NCBI GenBank assembly: GCA_021794235.1
Contig: JAJYRE010000015.1
Span: forward strand, 1-47,233
Direction of reading: 5' to 3'
DNA: 47,233 nucleotides
Source: Nanobdellota archaeon
GTDB lineage: Archaea > Nanobdellota > Nanobdellia > Parvarchaeales > Parvarchaeaceae
The notes under the pieces are model-generated. The model was given only the letters and a program-made list of their open reading frames with translations. It was not told where the DNA came from and did not search any database. Shown one piece after another: positions 20,323 through 26,857 of this stretch. Position numbers and translations under genes: made by a program. The stretch's first letter is position 1. The number at the start of each line of letters is the position of its first letter.

Positions 20323-20395
20323 GCCCCGATAGTCTAGCGGCCAAGGACATTGCCCTTTCGAGGCAGAAACCCGGGTTCAAATCCCGGTCGGGGCA
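20323..20395 (+). tRNA. tRNA-Glu (anticodon UUC)
   Basis: Acceptor GCCCCGA/TCGGGGC, D stem GTCT/GGAC, anticodon stem TTGCC/GGCAG with loop CTTTCGA (anticodon TTC at 20357-20359), T stem CCGGG/CCCGG with canonical loop TTCAAAT, discriminator A at 20395. No encoded CCA. A/T-rich TATA-like boxes (TTATATAAAA at ~20284 and TTTATATGA at ~20304) lie upstream. Its last bases form one boundary of the integrated element. Confidence 0.95.
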
Positions 20396-20396
20396 A
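20383..20396 (+). repeat. attL-like site in tRNA-Glu 3' end
   Basis: CCCGGTCGGGGCAA, comprising the 3' half of the T stem, the 3' acceptor strand and the discriminator, recurs exactly at 24439-24452. The tRNA remains intact at this side, as is usual for tRNA-targeting integrases. Confidence 0.85.
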
Positions 20397-20466
20397 TTCG
20401 AGAAAAGGGGAAAAGAAAATCGATAAGAGACGTCAGAGTAAATTTTTAAAGCAGTTAACACTCTTT

Positions 20467-20802
20467 TTAGAGGGGTATAGTGGAGGCGAATGGTAAGACT
20501 GCGACTATGACCCAAATAATTAAAGCAAAAACACTTGATACAGAATATAAGACTGCAATATCTACGCCCATCTCTTCGTCTCGTTTATCTAGAGCATACT
20601 CTGCTGCTATCCCAAAAATTTCAGAAAGAACCCACATTATCACAGCTATAACTATTGAATATAATGCAAATTTTTGGAATGAAGGTGTTATGGTAGACGA
20701 GGAGAATAAACTTGCTATTAAAAGTATCCCTCCCAAATATAATAGATACTTATACCACTTATCTAAAATTAACTTATTAAAAAAAGATACTTCTTCCGCC
20801 AT
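20467..20802 (-). CDS. Small membrane protein of the integrated element
   Basis: 111 aa with three predicted transmembrane helices (about residues 18-34, 44-66 and 84-106) and a charged loop DKRDEEMG between the second and third. The N-terminal ~15 residues are polar. No family recognised. It lies between the tRNA-Glu attachment site and the integrase genes, on the opposite strand from the integrase. Confidence 0.6.
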   Translation of the reverse strand: MAEEVSFFNKLILDKWYKYLLYLGGILLIASLFSSSTITPSFQKFALYSIVIAVIMWVLSEIFGIAAEYALDKRDEEMGVDIAVLYSVSSVFALIIWVIVAVLPFASTIPL

Positions 20803-20845
20803 TAATCAATATGATTATCTCCTACTTTTTAATCCTTTCAAAAAG

Positions 20846-20876
20846 TCAATGCCCCATTTTGCCACTTCAATGCCCC
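20846..20876 (+). repeat. Direct repeat pair upstream of the nuclease fragment/integrase
   Basis: TCAATGCCCC occurs at 20846-20855 and 20867-20876, exactly 21 bp apart (two helical turns), ending 4 nt before the ATG at 20881. Position and spacing suggest an operator or arm-type recombinase binding site; function is inference. Confidence 0.4.
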
Positions 20877-20880
20877 TTTT

Positions 20881-21024
20881 ATGGTAAATCATAACTACAT
20901 AGCTGGCCGTCGTTTCGAGTACAAGGTCAAGCACCTCTACGAGCAGGCAGGCTATACGGTATTAAGGACGTCAGGGTCGCACGGCTTCGCAGACTTTCTA
21001 ACTGAGAGGAGAACCTATGACTGA
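20881..21024 (+). CDS. Truncated Holliday-junction-resolvase-like (PD-(D/E)XK) N-terminal fragment
   Basis: 47 aa. The pattern GRRFEYKVKHLYEQAGYTVLRTSGSHGFADF matches the start of archaeal Hjc-like nucleases (Gly-Arg-x-x-Glu-x-x-Val helix, then strand and Ser-x-Gly-Ser-x-Gly-x-x-Asp). The first acidic residues are present but the E-x-K strand that follows in the family is missing. The frame ends at a TGA overlapping the integrase start by 8 nt (20881-21024 versus 21017). Either a truncated nuclease coupled to integrase translation or a remnant. Confidence 0.55.
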   Translation: MVNHNYIAGRRFEYKVKHLYEQAGYTVLRTSGSHGFADFLTERRTYD

Positions 21025-21879
21025 AAACGACAGAAACACAGGCCTGATAGACAGATTCCTTCAGCAGTTAGACAGGGAAGGCTTCAAGGAGAACACAAAG
21101 GAATGGTATGTCACGGCTATCCACAAGTTCCAGGAGACGGTAAAACAAGACATAAGCGGGATACTGCCGGAAAACGTGGACAGCTTCTTCTCATATCTCC
21201 GCAATTCAGAGTTCACTTTTGAAACCAAAAAACATTACCTGTCAAGGTTAAGGAAGTTTGCCTTATGGTTAAATCCAGAGTTAGGGCTGTCAAAATACCG
21301 CTTTCAGTTCAAAGAGAAGAGGATACTGCCCCACGAGACTCTATCTGTGGAAGAAATCAAGAAAATGATAGATTCGGCAGAGAATATCCGGACAAGACGC
21401 TTATTTCCTTGTTATACGATACCGGCTGCCGGCCCCACGAACTGCTAAGCCTAAGGAGACAAGACGTAATGCTGGATTCTACAGGCCTTTTCGTATGTGT
21501 GCCGGAGGAGTGCAAGACAGGAGCAAGGCAGATACCCGTGATTCTAACGACAAAAAGCAATTATTACCTGGAGCAATACTTACAAGCCAACAAGATAAAG
21601 CCGACAGATAAAATATTTGATCTGTGCGTGGAATGGCTCAACCGCCTTGTCAAGACACTGGCGGGAGACCTGGCCAAGGAAAAGCACAGCTATTCTTACA
21701 TTTTCAGGCATTCCAGGGCCACGTTCCTAGCCCAGTATTTGACGGAAAGTCAGTTATGCGTCTATTTCGGCTGGAGACAAGGAAGTGACATGCCTAAGGT
21801 CTATGTGCACCTTAGTGGCAGGGATATTTTACCAGCGGTGATGGAACTGAATAGGAAGATTAAGGAGGGGCTTTTATGA
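21017..21879 (+). pseudogene. Tyrosine recombinase/integrase, interrupted by a 1-nt frameshift
   Basis: Two frames together make one ~286-aa archaeal integrase. The first (to about 21391) gives the SAM-like core-binding domain ending in SVEEIKKMIDSAENIR. The second resumes with DKTLISLLYDTGCRPHELLSL (catalytic Arg). It continues to YIFRHSRAT (Arg box, with Tyr where His is common), FGWRQGS (Trp/His position) and KVYVHLSG (nucleophilic Tyr). Adding one G at 21390-21391 restores N-I-R-D-K-T across the joint. GAGAGGAG 6-13 nt before the ATG is a good ribosome binding site. Unless a sequencing error or frameshifting is involved, the gene is inactive. Confidence 0.85.
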
Positions 21880-22085
21880 AAAGCCAAAAATTAGATGGAA
21901 TTCGAATAACTAAAATATTTTCTTCCTATTGCTTTATTCAGTTAATTTTTGTCCAATTTATTTTACTTCAATTTGTATTAAATAAAACTCTAGAAGGATT
22001 AGTGATAACTTCTCTAACATTTTTGGCTTTTGATATCTTATTTCTAGTGATAATAATAAAGAAATTAAAAAAGATATACAATTAA
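21876..22085 (+). CDS. Tiny membrane protein, element cargo
   Basis: 69 aa with two hydrophobic segments (about residues 14-34 and 40-61) and a Lys-rich C-terminus, giving a hairpin topology. The ATG overlaps the integrase stop (ATGA), so it is translationally coupled to it. No family recognised. Base composition is strongly A/T-rich. Confidence 0.6.
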   Translation: MKSQKLDGIRITKIFSSYCFIQLIFVQFILLQFVLNKTLEGLVITSLTFLAFDILFLVIIIKKLKKIYN

Positions 22086-22128
22086 TAGAGTAAGTAAAAT
22101 ATTAAAAGTAAGAGGTCATACAAAAATT

Positions 22129-22335
22129 ATGAACATACAGCAAATTTTGTTTTTGCTTGGTATAATATGCTGGGTGCTCTTAGTTGTAATAGTTTTATCT
22201 TTTATAGCAGTAGGTATCTCCAATACAAGTGTAATTTTTGATGCACTTGTTGGTGCGCTAGTCTTTTTTGGCTTTGTTTTTATAATTGCAGGGGGCGTCC
22301 TATCAAAACTTCGACATGGATTTAATAAATTATAA
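22129..22335 (+). CDS. Tiny two-span membrane protein, element cargo
   Basis: 68 aa; two transmembrane helices (about residues 7-29 and 38-58) with a short charged tail SKLRHGFNKL. Starts 43 nt after the previous gene. No recognised family; possibly a paralog in style of its neighbours. Confidence 0.55.
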   Translation: MNIQQILFLLGIICWVLLVVIVLSFIAVGISNTSVIFDALVGALVFFGFVFIIAGGVLSKLRHGFNKL

Positions 22336-22365
22336 AGTCTGTCTAGGCAGGTTCTAAGGCAACTT

Positions 22366-22563
22366 ATGAACAAAAAAGGACAAGTCGAAGTGATTTTAAG
22401 TTGGCTGCTTGTACTTATATTTGAGGGGATAATAATTGCACTTGCGGAAACAACAAATTACTCTGCTACAATTAACCTGATTATCCATATAGGTGTACCA
22501 GTTGCATTTTTGGGGAGTGATATGGCGGCTTTCCTTGCTTTAGCAGGAGTTTCAAATGGTTAA
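22366..22563 (+). CDS. Tiny membrane protein with class III-like N-terminus, element cargo
   Basis: 65 aa. The N-terminus NKKGQVEVILSWLLVLI resembles a class III signal (KG before Q, then a hydrophobic run), although the Glu is at +3 rather than +5. A second hydrophobic segment spans ~37-60. It ends before a convergent minus-strand operon. Function unknown. Confidence 0.5.
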   Translation: MNKKGQVEVILSWLLVLIFEGIIIALAETTNYSATINLIIHIGVPVAFLGSDMAAFLALAGVSNG

Positions 22564-22604
22564 TATTTTTATCAGAACTCAAGATTTAACGCCACTTAAA
22601 CTAT

Positions 22605-23066
22605 CTATCTTCCAATTTCGTTTCTAACATAACCTACTTTTTGTAATGCTGTATTAGTTTGCAAGTTATCATAATGGCAGATGGCTGCTTTAAATTTGTT
22701 TGCTTTAACACTAAAGTAAGTAGTATGTTCTGTAGCTTTTTTAGGCTTTACTTTTGTAATATAATCTGGACCAATATAATTATCTGCTGGCTCAATTATT
22801 CCATTAGTTGTTTGTCTATTACCCATTAATCCATCACCAACCTCTCCATGTAATTCTAAAGAACTGTAATCATTATGTACGGAAGTTTCAAGTGTACCAT
22901 CTGCTTTTTCTAAAACTAAACACTTAAAATTAAAGATTTTTATCCATGATATCTTCCTATCTGTATCCATCTGTTTGGGTCTTACATACCCAACAGAACC
23001 ACCTAAACTTTTTCCAAATATGCATGCCATAGGAAACTTAGAGGGGTGGTACAATTTCTCTTTCAT
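22605..23066 (-). CDS. Hypothetical protein, element cargo
   Basis: 153 aa, soluble, predicted mostly beta, with several aromatic and Gly residues and no recognised motif. Third gene of a minus-strand operon (start 6 nt after the winged-helix gene stop). It could be a structural or DNA-interacting element protein; nothing in the sequence decides. Confidence 0.55.
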   Translation of the reverse strand: MKEKLYHPSKFPMACIFGKSLGGSVGYVRPKQMDTDRKISWIKIFNFKCLVLEKADGTLETSVHNDYSSLELHGEVGDGLMGNRQTTNGIIEPADNYIGPDYITKVKPKKATEHTTYFSVKANKFKAAICHYDNLQTNTALQKVGYVRNEIGR

Positions 23067-23072
23067 ATCTCA

Positions 23073-23324
23073 CTACAGATCTCTTAGGAATCCTTCTTTC
23101 TTTAATTCATCGCACGCTTTAATCACTAAACTAGGTGCAACATTAATTTTTTCTGCAATATCTGAAATGTAAGCTTTTTTATGAGTTTTAAAGTATATTT
23201 TTATCTTATTTTTGATTTGTCCTAGTTCTTGCTCTTTTGCTAGTTCATTACTGGTCATGGCTGTAACGGCCATTGCTAGACTTATAGTATTCACCCCACT
23301 GCTAATACGTTCAGTTAGTTCCAT
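23073..23324 (-). CDS. Winged-helix DNA-binding protein, element regulator candidate
   Basis: 83 aa. Residues ~36-83 form a winged helix-turn-helix: IKNKIKIYFKTHKKAY, then ISDIAEKINVAPSLVIKACDELKKEGFL, in which the second and third helices fit a MarR/ArsR-like reading of DNA. The N-terminal 35 residues are helical. Located between two unrecognised genes with 1-nt and 6-nt gaps. A role as element repressor is inference from size and context. Confidence 0.65.
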   Translation of the reverse strand: MELTERISSGVNTISLAMAVTAMTSNELAKEQELGQIKNKIKIYFKTHKKAYISDIAEKINVAPSLVIKACDELKKEGFLRDL

Positions 23325-23325
23325 T

Positions 23326-23724
23326 CTACATCCCTATTTTTTCACCAAATGCTCTTAAGTCTTTGGCTAAACTTCTTTTTTCCTTTTCACTGCTTTCCAT
23401 AAGATTTGTTAACCTTTTGTTGAATGATGATGCCTGAATCAAAATATTTATTAGGCGTGCTTGTGCATCAGGACCCATTTTTTTACTTAGTTCCGCTAAG
23501 ACTAATGGATTTTTTTGTATTTCTTGTATAGATAAAAAATCTTTTGGATATTTTTTTTGAAGGTCTGCCAACATATCAATAGCATTAGCCGTTTCACTAA
23601 AGAGCTTAGTATAAAATACACCGAAATCTTTAATGAACTTATCCTTTGTGTCTTCTCCCTTAGAACCTCTTTCAGTCTTTTTCATCATATTATATTTATT
23701 TTTCTGCTTATTTAAAACTAACAT
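23326..23724 (-). CDS. Hypothetical helical protein, first gene of element operon
   Basis: 132 aa, Lys-rich, predicted all-helical with coiled-coil tendency at the C-terminus (about residues 95-130). An internal Met-Met at residues 13-14 is an alternative start. On the minus strand TCATATAAG lies ~25 nt before the ATG at 23724, consistent with a leaderless transcript for the three-gene operon. No family recognised. Confidence 0.55.
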   Translation of the reverse strand: MLVLNKQKNKYNMMKKTERGSKGEDTKDKFIKDFGVFYTKLFSETANAIDMLADLQKKYPKDFLSIQEIQKNPLVLAELSKKMGPDAQARLINILIQASSFNKRLTNLMESSEKEKRSLAKDLRAFGEKIGM

Positions 23725-23784
23725 TATGTTAGGAATCTTATCTTATATGAACTTATTTATATTAACAAGCTTTTCTAATTAAAT

Positions 23785-24380
23785 ATAGAAAAACTGGTAA
23801 AGAATTATGTTACATTTTTAAATTTAATCTTACTTATTTTTCTATTGACAGTGTTTATAACAGATACATTCTGGAGATTATCTGGCCCAATCAATATTGT
23901 AGGGACAGCGGTGGCAATTGCACTTCTTGCACTTTTAGAGGTTTATTTTTTAAAATAAGAGGTGACCCTAAGAAAAATCAGATTAAAGCGCTTATACTAA
24001 AATCAAAATTTAAACGGGCTTTAGAACCATCAATTTATCTTGAATTAGTTGCATTATTTACATTCGGGGTACTAGGAATATACACTGCAGTTACGACCCT
24101 TAATCAAGCCGAGTCTTTATTGTATTTTACAGCTTTTTCCCTTTTCGCCCTACCTCTTATAAACGCACCAATATTTTTAGCACATTTACATAAGAGAATG
24201 AATAGAGAGAGCACTAAGAAAAATTATTCTTTGTTATCATTTTTAGCTATTGTTATGGTGGTAATAACTTTCCTAGTTAATTATAACTCGCCCATTAACA
24301 ATCTACTTTATGATGGAGTTATATGGATTTTCGCTATAATTATGACTGTGGGGGCAGAACATTTATCTGATGTAATCTAA
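23785..24380 (+). pseudogene. Membrane protein, apparently frameshifted, no clear start
   Basis: One frame (open from 23779 to the TAA at 23956-23958) encodes a Lys-containing start and two hydrophobic helices ending LLALLEVYFLK. A second frame continues directly with a basic loop (KKNQIKALILKSKF) and then about four hydrophobic helices to 24380. Within that frame the only obvious start is a TTG at 24120, which would cut the first helix. The shift falls at a TTTTTTAAAA run (23947-23955), a typical indel site, so a single ~195-aa multi-span protein broken by a 1-nt loss is the simplest reading. No ATG was found at the front. Two separate small genes remain possible. Confidence 0.45.
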
Positions 24381-24438
24381 ATATTTAAATATCCACAAAT
24401 CCTCAGATTATCATTCTAATATGGCAGAAATGTCACGG

Positions 24439-24452
24439 CCCGGTCGGGGCAA
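24439..24452 (+). repeat. attR-like site
   Basis: Exact 14-bp copy (CCCGGTCGGGGCAA) of the tRNA-Glu 3' end at 20383-20396. Upstream GGCAGAAA (24423-24430) also matches the tRNA anticodon-stem region (20362-20369), so a slightly larger, degenerate tRNA piece may be present. Confidence 0.85.
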
Positions 24453-24523
24453 CTTCTAATAATCCAATTTCGGAAGATTATATTATATAACTTAACTTTA
24501 CCATATTCTATCAGAAAGAAAAC

Positions 24524-25558
24524 ATGGAAATCAAAAGTAAGGAAGTCAGTTGGGACGTTATCGGCGTCCGGATGTACGGGACAATCACTGGACCCTCAGA
24601 TAATAAAAAACATCCGGCAATTGTGTTTGTAGCGGGTAGCGGACCCACCGATAGGGACTGGTGCTCGCCTCTTCTGAGGGGTGAGAATGGGAGCGCCAGA
24701 CTTCTTGCTGACTTTTTTGCTGAAAACGGATTCATAACACTGCGCTATGATAAGTTCGGATCCGGTCCGCACGTTAAAGAAGATTTGCCAAAGTTAATCG
24801 GTAAAGTCAGCATGCAGATTCACGTGGATGAACTGGAAGGTGCGGTTAACGCCCTTTTATCCGAGAAAAATGTGGATAAGAAGAATCTTTTCGTGTTGGG
24901 AAACAGTGAGGGCACGATTCATGCGGTAAACTACCAGCTTCAGGCCAAGGCAAACCGGTTTAAAGGGCTTATACTGACCGGCGCTCCTGGTAGGGCAATC
25001 GGCGAAGTCGCCCGGAGCCAGATACTGAATCAGCTGAATTCATTGTCTGGTGACAGTGCTTTCAGCAGATTTTTCACAAAGATAGGCGTTATACCGGACA
25101 AGAAAAGATTTATGGAGAGCTATGACGAAGCCACAGCTAACTTCTTAGCAGGTAAATCGATACAATCTAAATTATATGGCGGAAAAGCGATAAGGAGATT
25201 GCTTCGCTCCCTGGAAAATCCGGCGAATCAGCCATTCTCGAGAGAGCTCTGGACATATGACCTTACAAAAAACATATCAAAAATCAAGTCCCCCATCTTA
25301 ATATTGATAGGCAAGAAAGACATACAGACTGACTGGAAAATAGACGGCGAAGCCCTGAAAAAAGCTACGAAGGGCAACCCAAAGGTATCCTTCGCTTTTC
25401 CGAACGATTCCAACCATCTGCTGAAGTATGAGAAGATGCCGAGGAATAGACTAAACGCCAGATATGTCGGTAGAAACTACAACTCTCCAAGGAGTTATCT
25501 CGATAGGGGTGCTTTGAATGCGATCTACAGCTGGTTGATTAAGCAGACGAAATCTTAG
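24524..25558 (+). CDS. Alpha/beta hydrolase (serine esterase/peptidase type)
   Basis: 344 aa. The catalytic nucleophile is S128 in the elbow LGNSEG. The oxyanion-region strand is VFVAGSGPTDRD (residues 35-44). The likely acid is the Asp in LILIGKKDIQ and the likely base is the His in DSNHLL. Similar bacterial/archaeal proteins are annotated as dienelactone-hydrolase or S9-like hydrolases; the substrate is unknown. No signal peptide. The TATA-like ATATTATATAAC (24480-24491) lies between the attR site and the gene, so integration did not separate it from its promoter. Confidence 0.85.
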   Translation: MEIKSKEVSWDVIGVRMYGTITGPSDNKKHPAIVFVAGSGPTDRDWCSPLLRGENGSARLLADFFAENGFITLRYDKFGSGPHVKEDLPKLIGKVSMQIHVDELEGAVNALLSEKNVDKKNLFVLGNSEGTIHAVNYQLQAKANRFKGLILTGAPGRAIGEVARSQILNQLNSLSGDSAFSRFFTKIGVIPDKKRFMESYDEATANFLAGKSIQSKLYGGKAIRRLLRSLENPANQPFSRELWTYDLTKNISKIKSPILILIGKKDIQTDWKIDGEALKKATKGNPKVSFAFPNDSNHLLKYEKMPRNRLNARYVGRNYNSPRSYLDRGALNAIYSWLIKQTKS

Positions 25559-25613
25559 TTTTAATCCGCTGCTTAATGGTTAGGTATAAATTGCTAAAAT
25601 CCCATTTAGATAT

Positions 25614-25958
25614 ATGCTGTACACAGATTTCAGGTTTTACTGGTCTATCGTGGAGTTCTTCAGTGGCCTGATAGCGTCTGTTCTTTCAGTAATAGGCATC
25701 TACTCTCTTTTCAAGAACAGGAAAACCAATACACCACTGGTTTTCTGGGGCGTGCAGGCCAAAAATTCTAAGAAACCTTTCACACTGCTTGTAATTGCAT
25801 CGGTAATGCTGGTCGTTGTGTTTATAGTGTATATAATGAGCATACTTTTATCCGATGTCAACTTAAAGCTGGCTGCTTATGTTCTTGGTACAATAACCTA
25901 CGCCACAGCAGCCGTAGTAGTCTTCCTGTGGGTGAGATATTTCGCGAGGTTTATATGA
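25614..25958 (+). CDS. Small three-span membrane protein
   Basis: 114 aa with hydrophobic helices at ~14-34, 56-78 and 84-106. Basic residues follow helix 1 (KNRKTN). The stop overlaps the ATG of the next membrane-protein gene (ATGA). No family recognised. Confidence 0.65.
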   Translation: MLYTDFRFYWSIVEFFSGLIASVLSVIGIYSLFKNRKTNTPLVFWGVQAKNSKKPFTLLVIASVMLVVVFIVYIMSILLSDVNLKLAAYVLGTITYATAAVVVFLWVRYFARFI

Positions 25959-26278
25959 ATAGCGATCTAATCGAGGCAAGCATTAACCTTGTACTTGTGA
26001 TATTTGTTTTATTCTCCATAATACGGTTCAGCAGATTCTTCTACAAGAACCCGGATGCGGGCGTCAAGAGGATAGTCCTTAACAGGAAGACGATATGGCT
26101 CTTTACAATGTTCTTTTCCCTTAATTTCGTATTCATGATAGGTTTTTTCATCATGTTGCTGCCTGGTTTTGCCAATCTAGGTCCGGATCTTTTGGCAATA
26201 CTGGTGTATCTGGTTGGTGTGGCAGCGTTCTTCTTCGGGATGTCAGTGATACTATCTAGAAAATCCAAACAAATCTAA
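25955..26278 (+). CDS. Small three-span membrane protein, partner of preceding gene
   Basis: 107 aa from the ATG at 25955; the frame is open upstream to a GTG at 25928, but the 4-nt ATGA overlap favours the ATG. Three hydrophobic helices (about 8-27, 47-70 and 78-99) with a basic loop KRIVLNRKT. The same topology and size as its neighbour suggest a heteromeric pair or an old duplication. Function unknown. Confidence 0.65.
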   Translation: MNSDLIEASINLVLVIFVLFSIIRFSRFFYKNPDAGVKRIVLNRKTIWLFTMFFSLNFVFMIGFFIMLLPGFANLGPDLLAILVYLVGVAAFFFGMSVILSRKSKQI

Positions 26279-26332
26279 TAAGCAAAATAAATCGGATAGA
26301 ATCAAAAACACCGGCTTCTCAGCTCTTGCCTT

Positions 26333-26368
26333 TTAAAAAAAGGTAAAAAAATTAAAAAATTAAATACG
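26333..26368 (-). terminator. Oligo-T terminator for the pilin gene
   Basis: Downstream of the minus-strand pilin stop (26372) the minus strand carries three T runs (TTTTTT, TTTTTTT, TTTTTTT) within 36 nt, the usual archaeal termination signal. It also separates the convergent membrane-protein operon. Confidence 0.6.
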
Positions 26369-26371
26369 GTT

Positions 26372-26857
26372 TTAACTGCCTGTTCCTGCTATTGTACCTG
26401 AGGCGTTGTATGTCTGAGTACCCAATGTTGTGGTAACATTGAATTCTACAATACCCGCTCCGGAGAATTTTACTCCAGTTGTACATGTAATCCCATCTAC
26501 AGCAACAGTAAATACGCTGCTAGACTGTACAGTAGAAGGTGTGAAGGTTGGGGTTTTTACAGAACCGCTCATTCCACTACTGGGGGTTACAAATATCTTC
26601 CATAGCTTTGCGCTAGTAGCTCCATTAGGCAATCCACCAACTGAAAATGCTACTGCAAGACTTGTACCAGTGGTACTTGCATTACATACAGTTGCGGTTG
26701 GCGTGAATGGGCTAAAGCCGCTAGATGTCGAAGATACACTACTCGAAGGGCTGAAAATACCCATCGAGTACAGGACAGCAGCTACGATTACAATGATTAG
26801 TATGGCCCAACCATACGTCATCATGTATTCCAATGCTGACTGTGCTCTTTTTACCAT
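26372..26857 (-). CDS. Type IV pilin-like protein with class III signal peptide
   Basis: 161 aa. The N-terminus KRAQSALEYMMTYGWAILI is a textbook class III prepilin signal (Q-S-A-L-E at +1 to +5), followed by a ~20-residue hydrophobic helix. The rest is Ser/Thr/Val/Gly-rich with two Cys and N-x-S/T sequons, as in DPANN pilins. It has its own strong TATA box and T-rich terminator and no operon partner, so it is probably a highly expressed major subunit (inference). Confidence 0.88.
   Translation of the reverse strand: MVKRAQSALEYMMTYGWAILIIVIVAAVLYSMGIFSPSSSVSSTSSGFSPFTPTATVCNASTTGTSLAVAFSVGGLPNGATSAKLWKIFVTPSSGMSGSVKTPTFTPSTVQSSSVFTVAVDGITCTTGVKFSGAGIVEFNVTTTLGTQTYNASGTIAGTGS

Follow-up and report, generated by a model that had tools for sequence, protein, structure and literature searches.

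Evidence for a family of small tRNA-Glu-specific integrated elements with common ends and differing cargo in a genus of DPANN archaea

Contig JAJYRE010000015.1 of the Nanobdellota archaeon assembly GCA_021794235.1 (47,233 nucleotides, all of it analysed and called the window here) carries at positions 20383–24452 a segment that is very probably an integrated mobile element of a genus-wide, tRNA-Glu-specific family in a DPANN (Parvarchaeota-type) host. As contig C21, the window belongs to a genome of 715 kb (G000; 25 contigs, 78% complete). An earlier note, made from the window alone, had proposed an element integrated in the tRNA-Glu gene of a DPANN host, and this proposal is strongly supported by related elements at tRNA-Glu in three other genomes of the genus (G011, G013 and G027). 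The four elements evidently have conserved ends and an integrase subfamily in common. The features that define the window copy are:

20323–20395, + strand: tRNA-Glu (TTC) called by ARAGORN, the integration target, with its 3′ end from attL; it adjoins a GH57 gene in most genus genomes
20383–20396, + strand: attL core, CCCGGTCGGGGCAA
20397–20430, + strand: left arm of the element, consensus like TCGAGAAAA.GGGGAAA, common to G011, G013, G027 and the relics in G009 and G017
21017–21879, + strand: tyrosine recombinase (integrase), with a frameshift near 21390 (N-terminal piece 21017–21448, C-terminal piece 21265–21879)
21876–21879, + strand: ATGA overlap of the integrase stop and the first cargo start, where DNA homology between elements ends
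24383–24438, + strand: attR arm, consensus like ATCATTCTAATATG.CAGAAATGTC, kept in G011 and G013 and partly in G027
24439–24452, + strand: attR core, CCCGGTCGGGGCAA

The direct repeat CCCGGTCGGGGCAA is exact over 14 bp with a spacing of 4056 bp, and an intact tRNA-Glu gene takes its 3′ end from the first copy; the repeat search and the tRNA call thus bear out the earlier description of two copies, one completing the tRNA. These are the only matches in the 47 kb when up to two mismatches are allowed. The expectation is 0.11, and two matches were reached in one of 100 shuffles. In this the segment resembles other tyrosine recombinase islands that use the 3′ ends of tRNA genes. The interior is A+T-rich, as the earlier note had it, with 31–32% GC at 22–24 kb versus 44–49% across most of the window, and the list of open reading frames (ORFs) together with a domain search places a tyrosine recombinase, a winged helix-turn-helix (wHTH) protein and small membrane or unknown proteins within it, again in agreement with that description. 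Pfam and PHROG searches recognised no replication, capsid or conjugation gene, likewise as first reported. Two features go beyond the earlier account: the recombinase is frameshifted in the window, and a 47-amino-acid Hjc-like fragment lies just before it.

Support for integration comes from the same site in 28 genomes of the genus, most of which keep the GH57 gene–tRNA-Glu neighbourhood. The integrase is present in four of the 28; close relatives of the window copy (72–88% identity) are found only in G011, G013 and G027, and the next matches lie at about 45% identity or less. Measured from the tRNA 3′ end to the second core, the elements in G011, G013 and G027 span 2796, 3274 and 2179 bp, respectively. 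Their first cores are followed by the window's left arm, and the second cores of G011, G013 and the window are preceded by the common attR arm, which is shortened in G027. The tRNA-Glu gene of G027 lies in a different neighbourhood, with no GH57 gene, yet the element sits in the tRNA. The left arm also occurs without an integrase in G009 and in G017, where memA (described below) accompanies it; both are relics. A 13-bp core was found in 23 of the 28 genomes and is single in 18 of these. It is doubled together with an integrase in G000, G011 and G013 only, the second copy in G027, the fourth carrier, having diverged; the doubled core of G006 reflects two contigs that overlap on one tRNA, and that of G008 two contigs with two versions of the locus. 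The tRNA-Glu gene is uninterrupted in the other genomes with a readable locus. Neither presence of the segment in all relatives nor lack of any empty site, the two outcomes that the earlier note had named as arguing against integration, was therefore found: the element is in four of 28 genomes, relics are in two, and the remaining readable loci are uninterrupted. The overlap of the two G006 contigs is exactly 127 bp long, and one of them stops precisely where the tRNA core has its 3′ end. This is the pattern that assembly leaves at a fork with two continuations, and it may be a trace of population polymorphism at the att site.

The four elements are built alike. A head, running from the att core through the integrase (41–45% GC), is common to all, and the cargo behind it (482–2559 bp, 27–33% GC) is unrelated between elements. 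In five of the six pairwise DNA alignments homology ends within about 6 bp of the integrase stop; for the G013–G027 pair it runs about 40 bp past it. The integrase ends in ATGA in every element, with an ORF starting on that ATG, although, as this ATG is part of the conserved end of the integrase, the overlap alone is no proof of the start of each cargo gene. The window cargo comprises small membrane proteins and, on the opposite strand, orf132–wHTH–orf153; G011 carries ORFs of 119 and 327 amino acids, G013 of 260 and 265, and G027 a 64-amino-acid zinc ribbon and a 93-amino-acid membrane protein. No cargo in the four elements could be assigned confidently to a family. For the window, G011 and G013, searches of Pfam, PHROG and PADLOC gave no confident match, the winged-helix and zinc-ribbon matches all lying below cut-offs, and known defence or virus genes were rejected as an identity for the cargo on this basis. 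Cargo has evidently been replaced between members of the family. An integron was also considered and rejected, since the four elements have no cassette array but one cargo block, bounded by an att arm and the integrase.

The comparison also establishes, at the level of sequence, that elements have moved between host lineages, because the integrase tree contradicts the host proteins. The tree pairs G000 with G027 and G013 with G011. Integrase identity is 91% for G000–G027 and 94% for G011–G013, whereas two housekeeping proteins are 61–69% and 65–70% identical, respectively; the closest hosts are instead G000 and G011 (78% for an IF5B-like protein and 76% for a TyrRS/TrpRS-like protein). For G011–G013, the proportion of differing synonymous sites is 0.41 in the integrase versus 0.82–0.87 in host genes. 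Synonymous sites are saturated between the window and G027, and therefore transfer in that pair is indicated by the tree and by amino-acid identity only.

The integrase is intact in G027, G013 and G011 (313–326 amino acids), with SAM-like and Phage_integrase domains above cut-off and a motif R...K...YxxRH...W...Y (R165, K193, Y254-x-x-R257-H258, W279 and Y289 in G027 numbering). Its matches in the PDB are XerA, XerC and XerD only. The ratio of nonsynonymous to synonymous substitution (dN/dS) is 0.08–0.10 where measurable, indicating purifying selection. The protein carries the R...YxxR...Y signature that marks the pNOB8-type, classical integrases (PMC8371274), and the elements resemble those of this type (type II) in having a tRNA target and an integrase gene that stays intact after integration, the att core lying outside the gene in all four; the assignment to this type is by signature. 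pNOB8 itself is a large conjugative plasmid with 40–50-bp att sites (PMC8371274), unlike the present elements with their 14-bp att and no recognised conjugation gene. An SSV-type (suicidal) integrase element was rejected, there being no gene split on integration and no R...KxxR...Y motif.

These observations suggest how the elements could work. The pNOB8-type recombinase would join the attP of a circular element to the tRNA-Glu 3′ end by recombination. The tRNA would thereby be restored at attL, a 14-bp copy would remain at attR and the integrase gene would stay unsplit. In the integrated form, att core, left arm, small membrane-protein genes and integrase would make up a constant head; behind it would come A+T-rich cargo, replaceable and read through from the integrase, and then a right att arm that is again constant. 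Cargo could be exchanged by homologous recombination between heads and arms or by tandem integration and deletion. Transfer between cells would probably depend on a helper virus or plasmid, vesicles or uptake, because no replication, packaging or conjugation gene is recognisable.

Three points weigh against an integrated mobile element. First, none of the 28 genomes offers a base-exact empty site with the right flank of the window, because the interval between tRNA-Glu and the pilin genes is hypervariable and an alpha/beta-hydrolase is unique to G000. Second, the window integrase is frameshifted and memE probably is too, sequencing or assembly error and real decay being indistinguishable here. 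Third, the element is known only in integrated form, from assemblies, and its route between cells is what we infer. Because its integrase is frameshifted, the window copy is probably unable to integrate or excise by itself, and it has probably decayed; the genes flanking it have no obvious breaks.

Regarding the right flank, the hypervariable interval extends across the genus and corresponds to positions 24453–26371 of the window, ending before the class III signal/pilin genes, which start at 26372. The alpha/beta-hydrolase (24524–25558) is absent from the other 27 genomes. This interval may be an older island beside the element. In G013 (L148:10963–15939), attR is followed directly by the C-terminal remnant of a second, zinc-ribbon-type integrase and then by a type III restriction-modification-like pair, an instance of tandem accretion at one tRNA.

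The nearest integrase found outside the genus bears on the first alternative to mobile elements in their own right, a satellite of a tailed archaeal virus, with a head derived from a temperate virus and with packaging by a helper during infection. A search of viral contigs with a single integrase sequence gave no match, but a search with the integrase alignment matched several, among them L238 (IMG/VR contig IMGVR_UViG_3300035688_000356; 42–44% identity, with the same YSYxFRHSRAT motif). This contig has genes for a large terminase subunit and for a tail protein, and in the integrase tree it, not the zinc-ribbon integrases of the genus, is sister to the four element integrases (SH-aLRT 100); like them, it has no C-terminal zinc ribbon. 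It differs in being larger, in its terminase and tail genes and in that no tRNA or att match to tRNA-Glu was found on it. The small size of the elements, typical of satellites, and their lack of structural genes of their own also fit a satellite. However, the integrase identity to L238 is low, searches for the terminase of that contig gave nothing in the genus genomes and only short, weak matches in 280 relatives, no packaging, capsid-size or phage-response gene is recognisable, and the cargo has no confident PHROG match. On balance, we consider a satellite possible but rather unlikely.

Reduction from a larger provirus or plasmid, with loss of mobility, is somewhat less probable still. The frameshifted integrase, a truncated left membrane-protein gene and the probable memE frameshift of the window copy are what such a relic would show, and G017 and G009 keep only left-end remnants. 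Against this, intact relatives are equally small or smaller and have both ends in common, and their integrases are under strong purifying selection with recent moves between lineages. Because intact relatives of 2.2–3.3 kb exist in other species, the small size characterises the family and is not simply the decay of one large provirus; the family is thus small by nature, though the window copy may well be dead. The suggestion in the earlier note that the element is perhaps a viral or plasmid satellite or relic therefore finds partial support: an integrase whose closest relative found lies on a tailed-virus contig and the decay of this copy favour it, whereas the intact relatives speak against simple decay of a large provirus and no helper or packaging signal was identified. 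A provirus as such was rejected, there being no capsid or genome-packaging gene among the Pfam and PHROG matches.

A bolder form of the mobile-element reading is a minimal gene shuttle in DPANN archaea, in which a fixed head and att arm carry arbitrary A+T-rich cargo exchanged precisely behind the integrase stop. We regard this as speculative and quite unlikely. If it were true, inserted genes would be transcribed and translationally coupled with the integrase, and their carriage by viruses or vesicles between ultra-small cells would give a lineage with reduced genomes a main means of acquiring genes.

The remaining genes of the window element are:

20397–20496, + strand: remnant of a small membrane-protein gene with most of its interior lost; translations are longer in G027, G013 and G009
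20467–20802, − strand: memA, a 111-amino-acid membrane protein common to G027 (55% amino-acid identity) and the relic in G017 (60%)
20881–21024, + strand: 47-amino-acid N-terminal Hjc-like fragment (archaeal Holliday-junction resolvase; Mrr_cat, weak E 0.034)
21876–22085, + strand: memB, predicted membrane protein of 69 amino acids, cargo
22129–22335, + strand: memC, predicted membrane protein of 68 amino acids, cargo
22366–22563, + strand: memD, predicted membrane protein of 65 amino acids, cargo
22605–23066, − strand: orf153, no family, only in G000 apart from one marginal match
23073–23324, − strand: wHTH protein, 83 amino acids, MarR/HTH_24-like, below cut-offs
23326–23724, − strand: orf132, predicted all-helical, paired with the wHTH gene here and in G002, G237 and G246
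23845–24380, + strand: memE, a multi-transmembrane protein in two frames, one open to 23958 and the other to 24380, probably a second frameshift

The dN/dS of memA is about 0.2–0.4, and we therefore take it to be coding. The Hjc-like fragment matches 112–122-amino-acid Hjc-like host ORFs of the genus and was found in no other element; it was rejected as a conserved part of the family.

The wHTH protein could indicate an autonomous cryptic plasmid, in which it starts replication of the excised circle as has been suggested for the thaumarchaeal element NitUzo-E2. It is weakly similar to two replication-initiation families (phrog_391, E 0.0044; phrog_4221, E 0.021), but its HTH matches to transcription regulators are equally good, and the orf132–wHTH pair also occurs in ordinary chromosomal contexts. 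The elements of G011, G013 and G027 have no recognisable wHTH or Rep protein, and replication is therefore not a family trait. We judge a plasmid of this kind very unlikely. The predicted orf132–wHTH–orf153 operon is most simply a regulator or host-interaction module. Structure models are all-helical for orf132 (pLDDT 83), with no fold match in the PDB, and uninformative for orf153 (pLDDT 30). Comparison of the cargo with virus sets, a check proposed in the earlier note, turned up no convincing viral home: orf153 has no relative among viral contigs, and orf132 has one weak, unconvincing match there, inside a 2332-amino-acid protein. A virus or plasmid home was rejected for these two cargo genes on this basis.

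Convincing orf132–wHTH matches among 378 sampled genomes of the class are confined to the window and G002, G237 and G246, which represent three families; the gene order is kept there in different chromosomal contexts, with a different third gene in each. This rare and patchy spread fits mobile cargo. The pair forms a module, so far undescribed, of two genes with a variable partner (L215:131–767, L216:9255–9862 and L217:9336–10005). A candidate role of orf153 as third member of a conserved operon was rejected, the third genes of G246 and G002 not being convincingly alignable with it.

Finally, a chance repeat, with an ordinary host region between two similar 14-mers, has a negligible probability: a single 14-bp repeat is by itself a modest observation, but all of the comparative evidence, above all the attR arms kept in three other species, contradicts it.

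Integrated mobile elements of this kind are best filed as a new DPANN family of archaeal cryptic integrated elements (CIEs), having direct repeats and a tyrosine integrase and, in Pfam and PHROG searches, no capsid or terminase, casposase or conjugation gene. No relaxase or other conjugation apparatus appeared among these matches, with the limit that archaeal relaxases are themselves unknown (PMC11389934). The smallest published CIE is NitUzo-E2 of Thaumarchaeota (2.6 kb, with an integrase, a wHTH protein and two hypothetical proteins), and the att repeats of thaumarchaeal elements are mostly 8–26 bp, with a median of 17 (PMC6563490, Krupovic et al. 2019). The likeness to NitUzo-E2 lies in small size, short att repeats and the lack of recognised replication or virus genes; the present elements differ in their DPANN host, in forming a four-member family with common ends at one tRNA, in the exchange of cargo at the integrase stop codon and in a smallest member of 2.18 kb.

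Tycheposons, which are tRNA-associated, and phage satellites such as PICI and PICMI likewise combine a tyrosine recombinase with variable cargo in a small island. Those are bacterial (PMC11389934) and generally larger, and the helper-interaction or packaging functions of satellites are not recognisable in the present elements. A 2025 survey of acidophilic archaea, including three Parvarchaeota genomes, reported genomic islands of 4.2–92 kb (PMC12302457). In the open-access literature, to which our search extended, we found no description of these or similar Parvarchaeota mobile elements. New are the host group, a minimum size of 2.2 kb and the resolution of a family whose ends are fixed and whose cargo is interchangeable; the general kind is known from other archaea.

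The host is a very small acid-loving archaeon, and host-dependent archaea with tiny genomes should be hard targets for gene exchange. With four members of 2–4 kb, intact integrases and clear att sites, excision, circularisation and helper dependence are testable in acid mine drainage metagenomes. The element is a candidate minimal integration vector for DPANN archaea, and its interchangeable cargo marks out where unknown small archaeal genes could be sought.

The target tRNA and other integrases of these archaea deserve brief comment. The tRNA-Glu genes of G011, G009, G027, G013 and G020 (L066, L073, L147, L148 and L017) have an apparent intron of roughly 18 extra nucleotides near the anticodon, which the window gene lacks; elements thus occur with and without the intron. 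The zinc-ribbon integrase islands of the genus (L149, L150 and L151) are also tyrosine recombinase islands, one of them (L150/L041) beside tRNA-Ser and some with restriction-modification genes, but they are larger and their integrases are about 27–36% identical to those described here, with a C-terminal zinc ribbon and an HxxR motif. L150 (G008:C48), a 10.6-kb contig, encodes, besides its integrase, several small membrane proteins and a RepA-like product that looks like an ATPase, which makes it a candidate for a larger element of the genus, plasmid- or virus-like. In L149 (G027:C25) and L151 (G009:C21), the integrases adjoin DNA methyltransferase and endonuclease-like genes, making these islands that carry defence genes. 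Among 26 more distant integrase loci of the class (L040–L065), 14 have a tRNA gene in the flanking sequence retrieved (Ser, Thr, Glu, Asp, Ala, Leu or Gln), and tRNA-targeting integrases seem common in the class.

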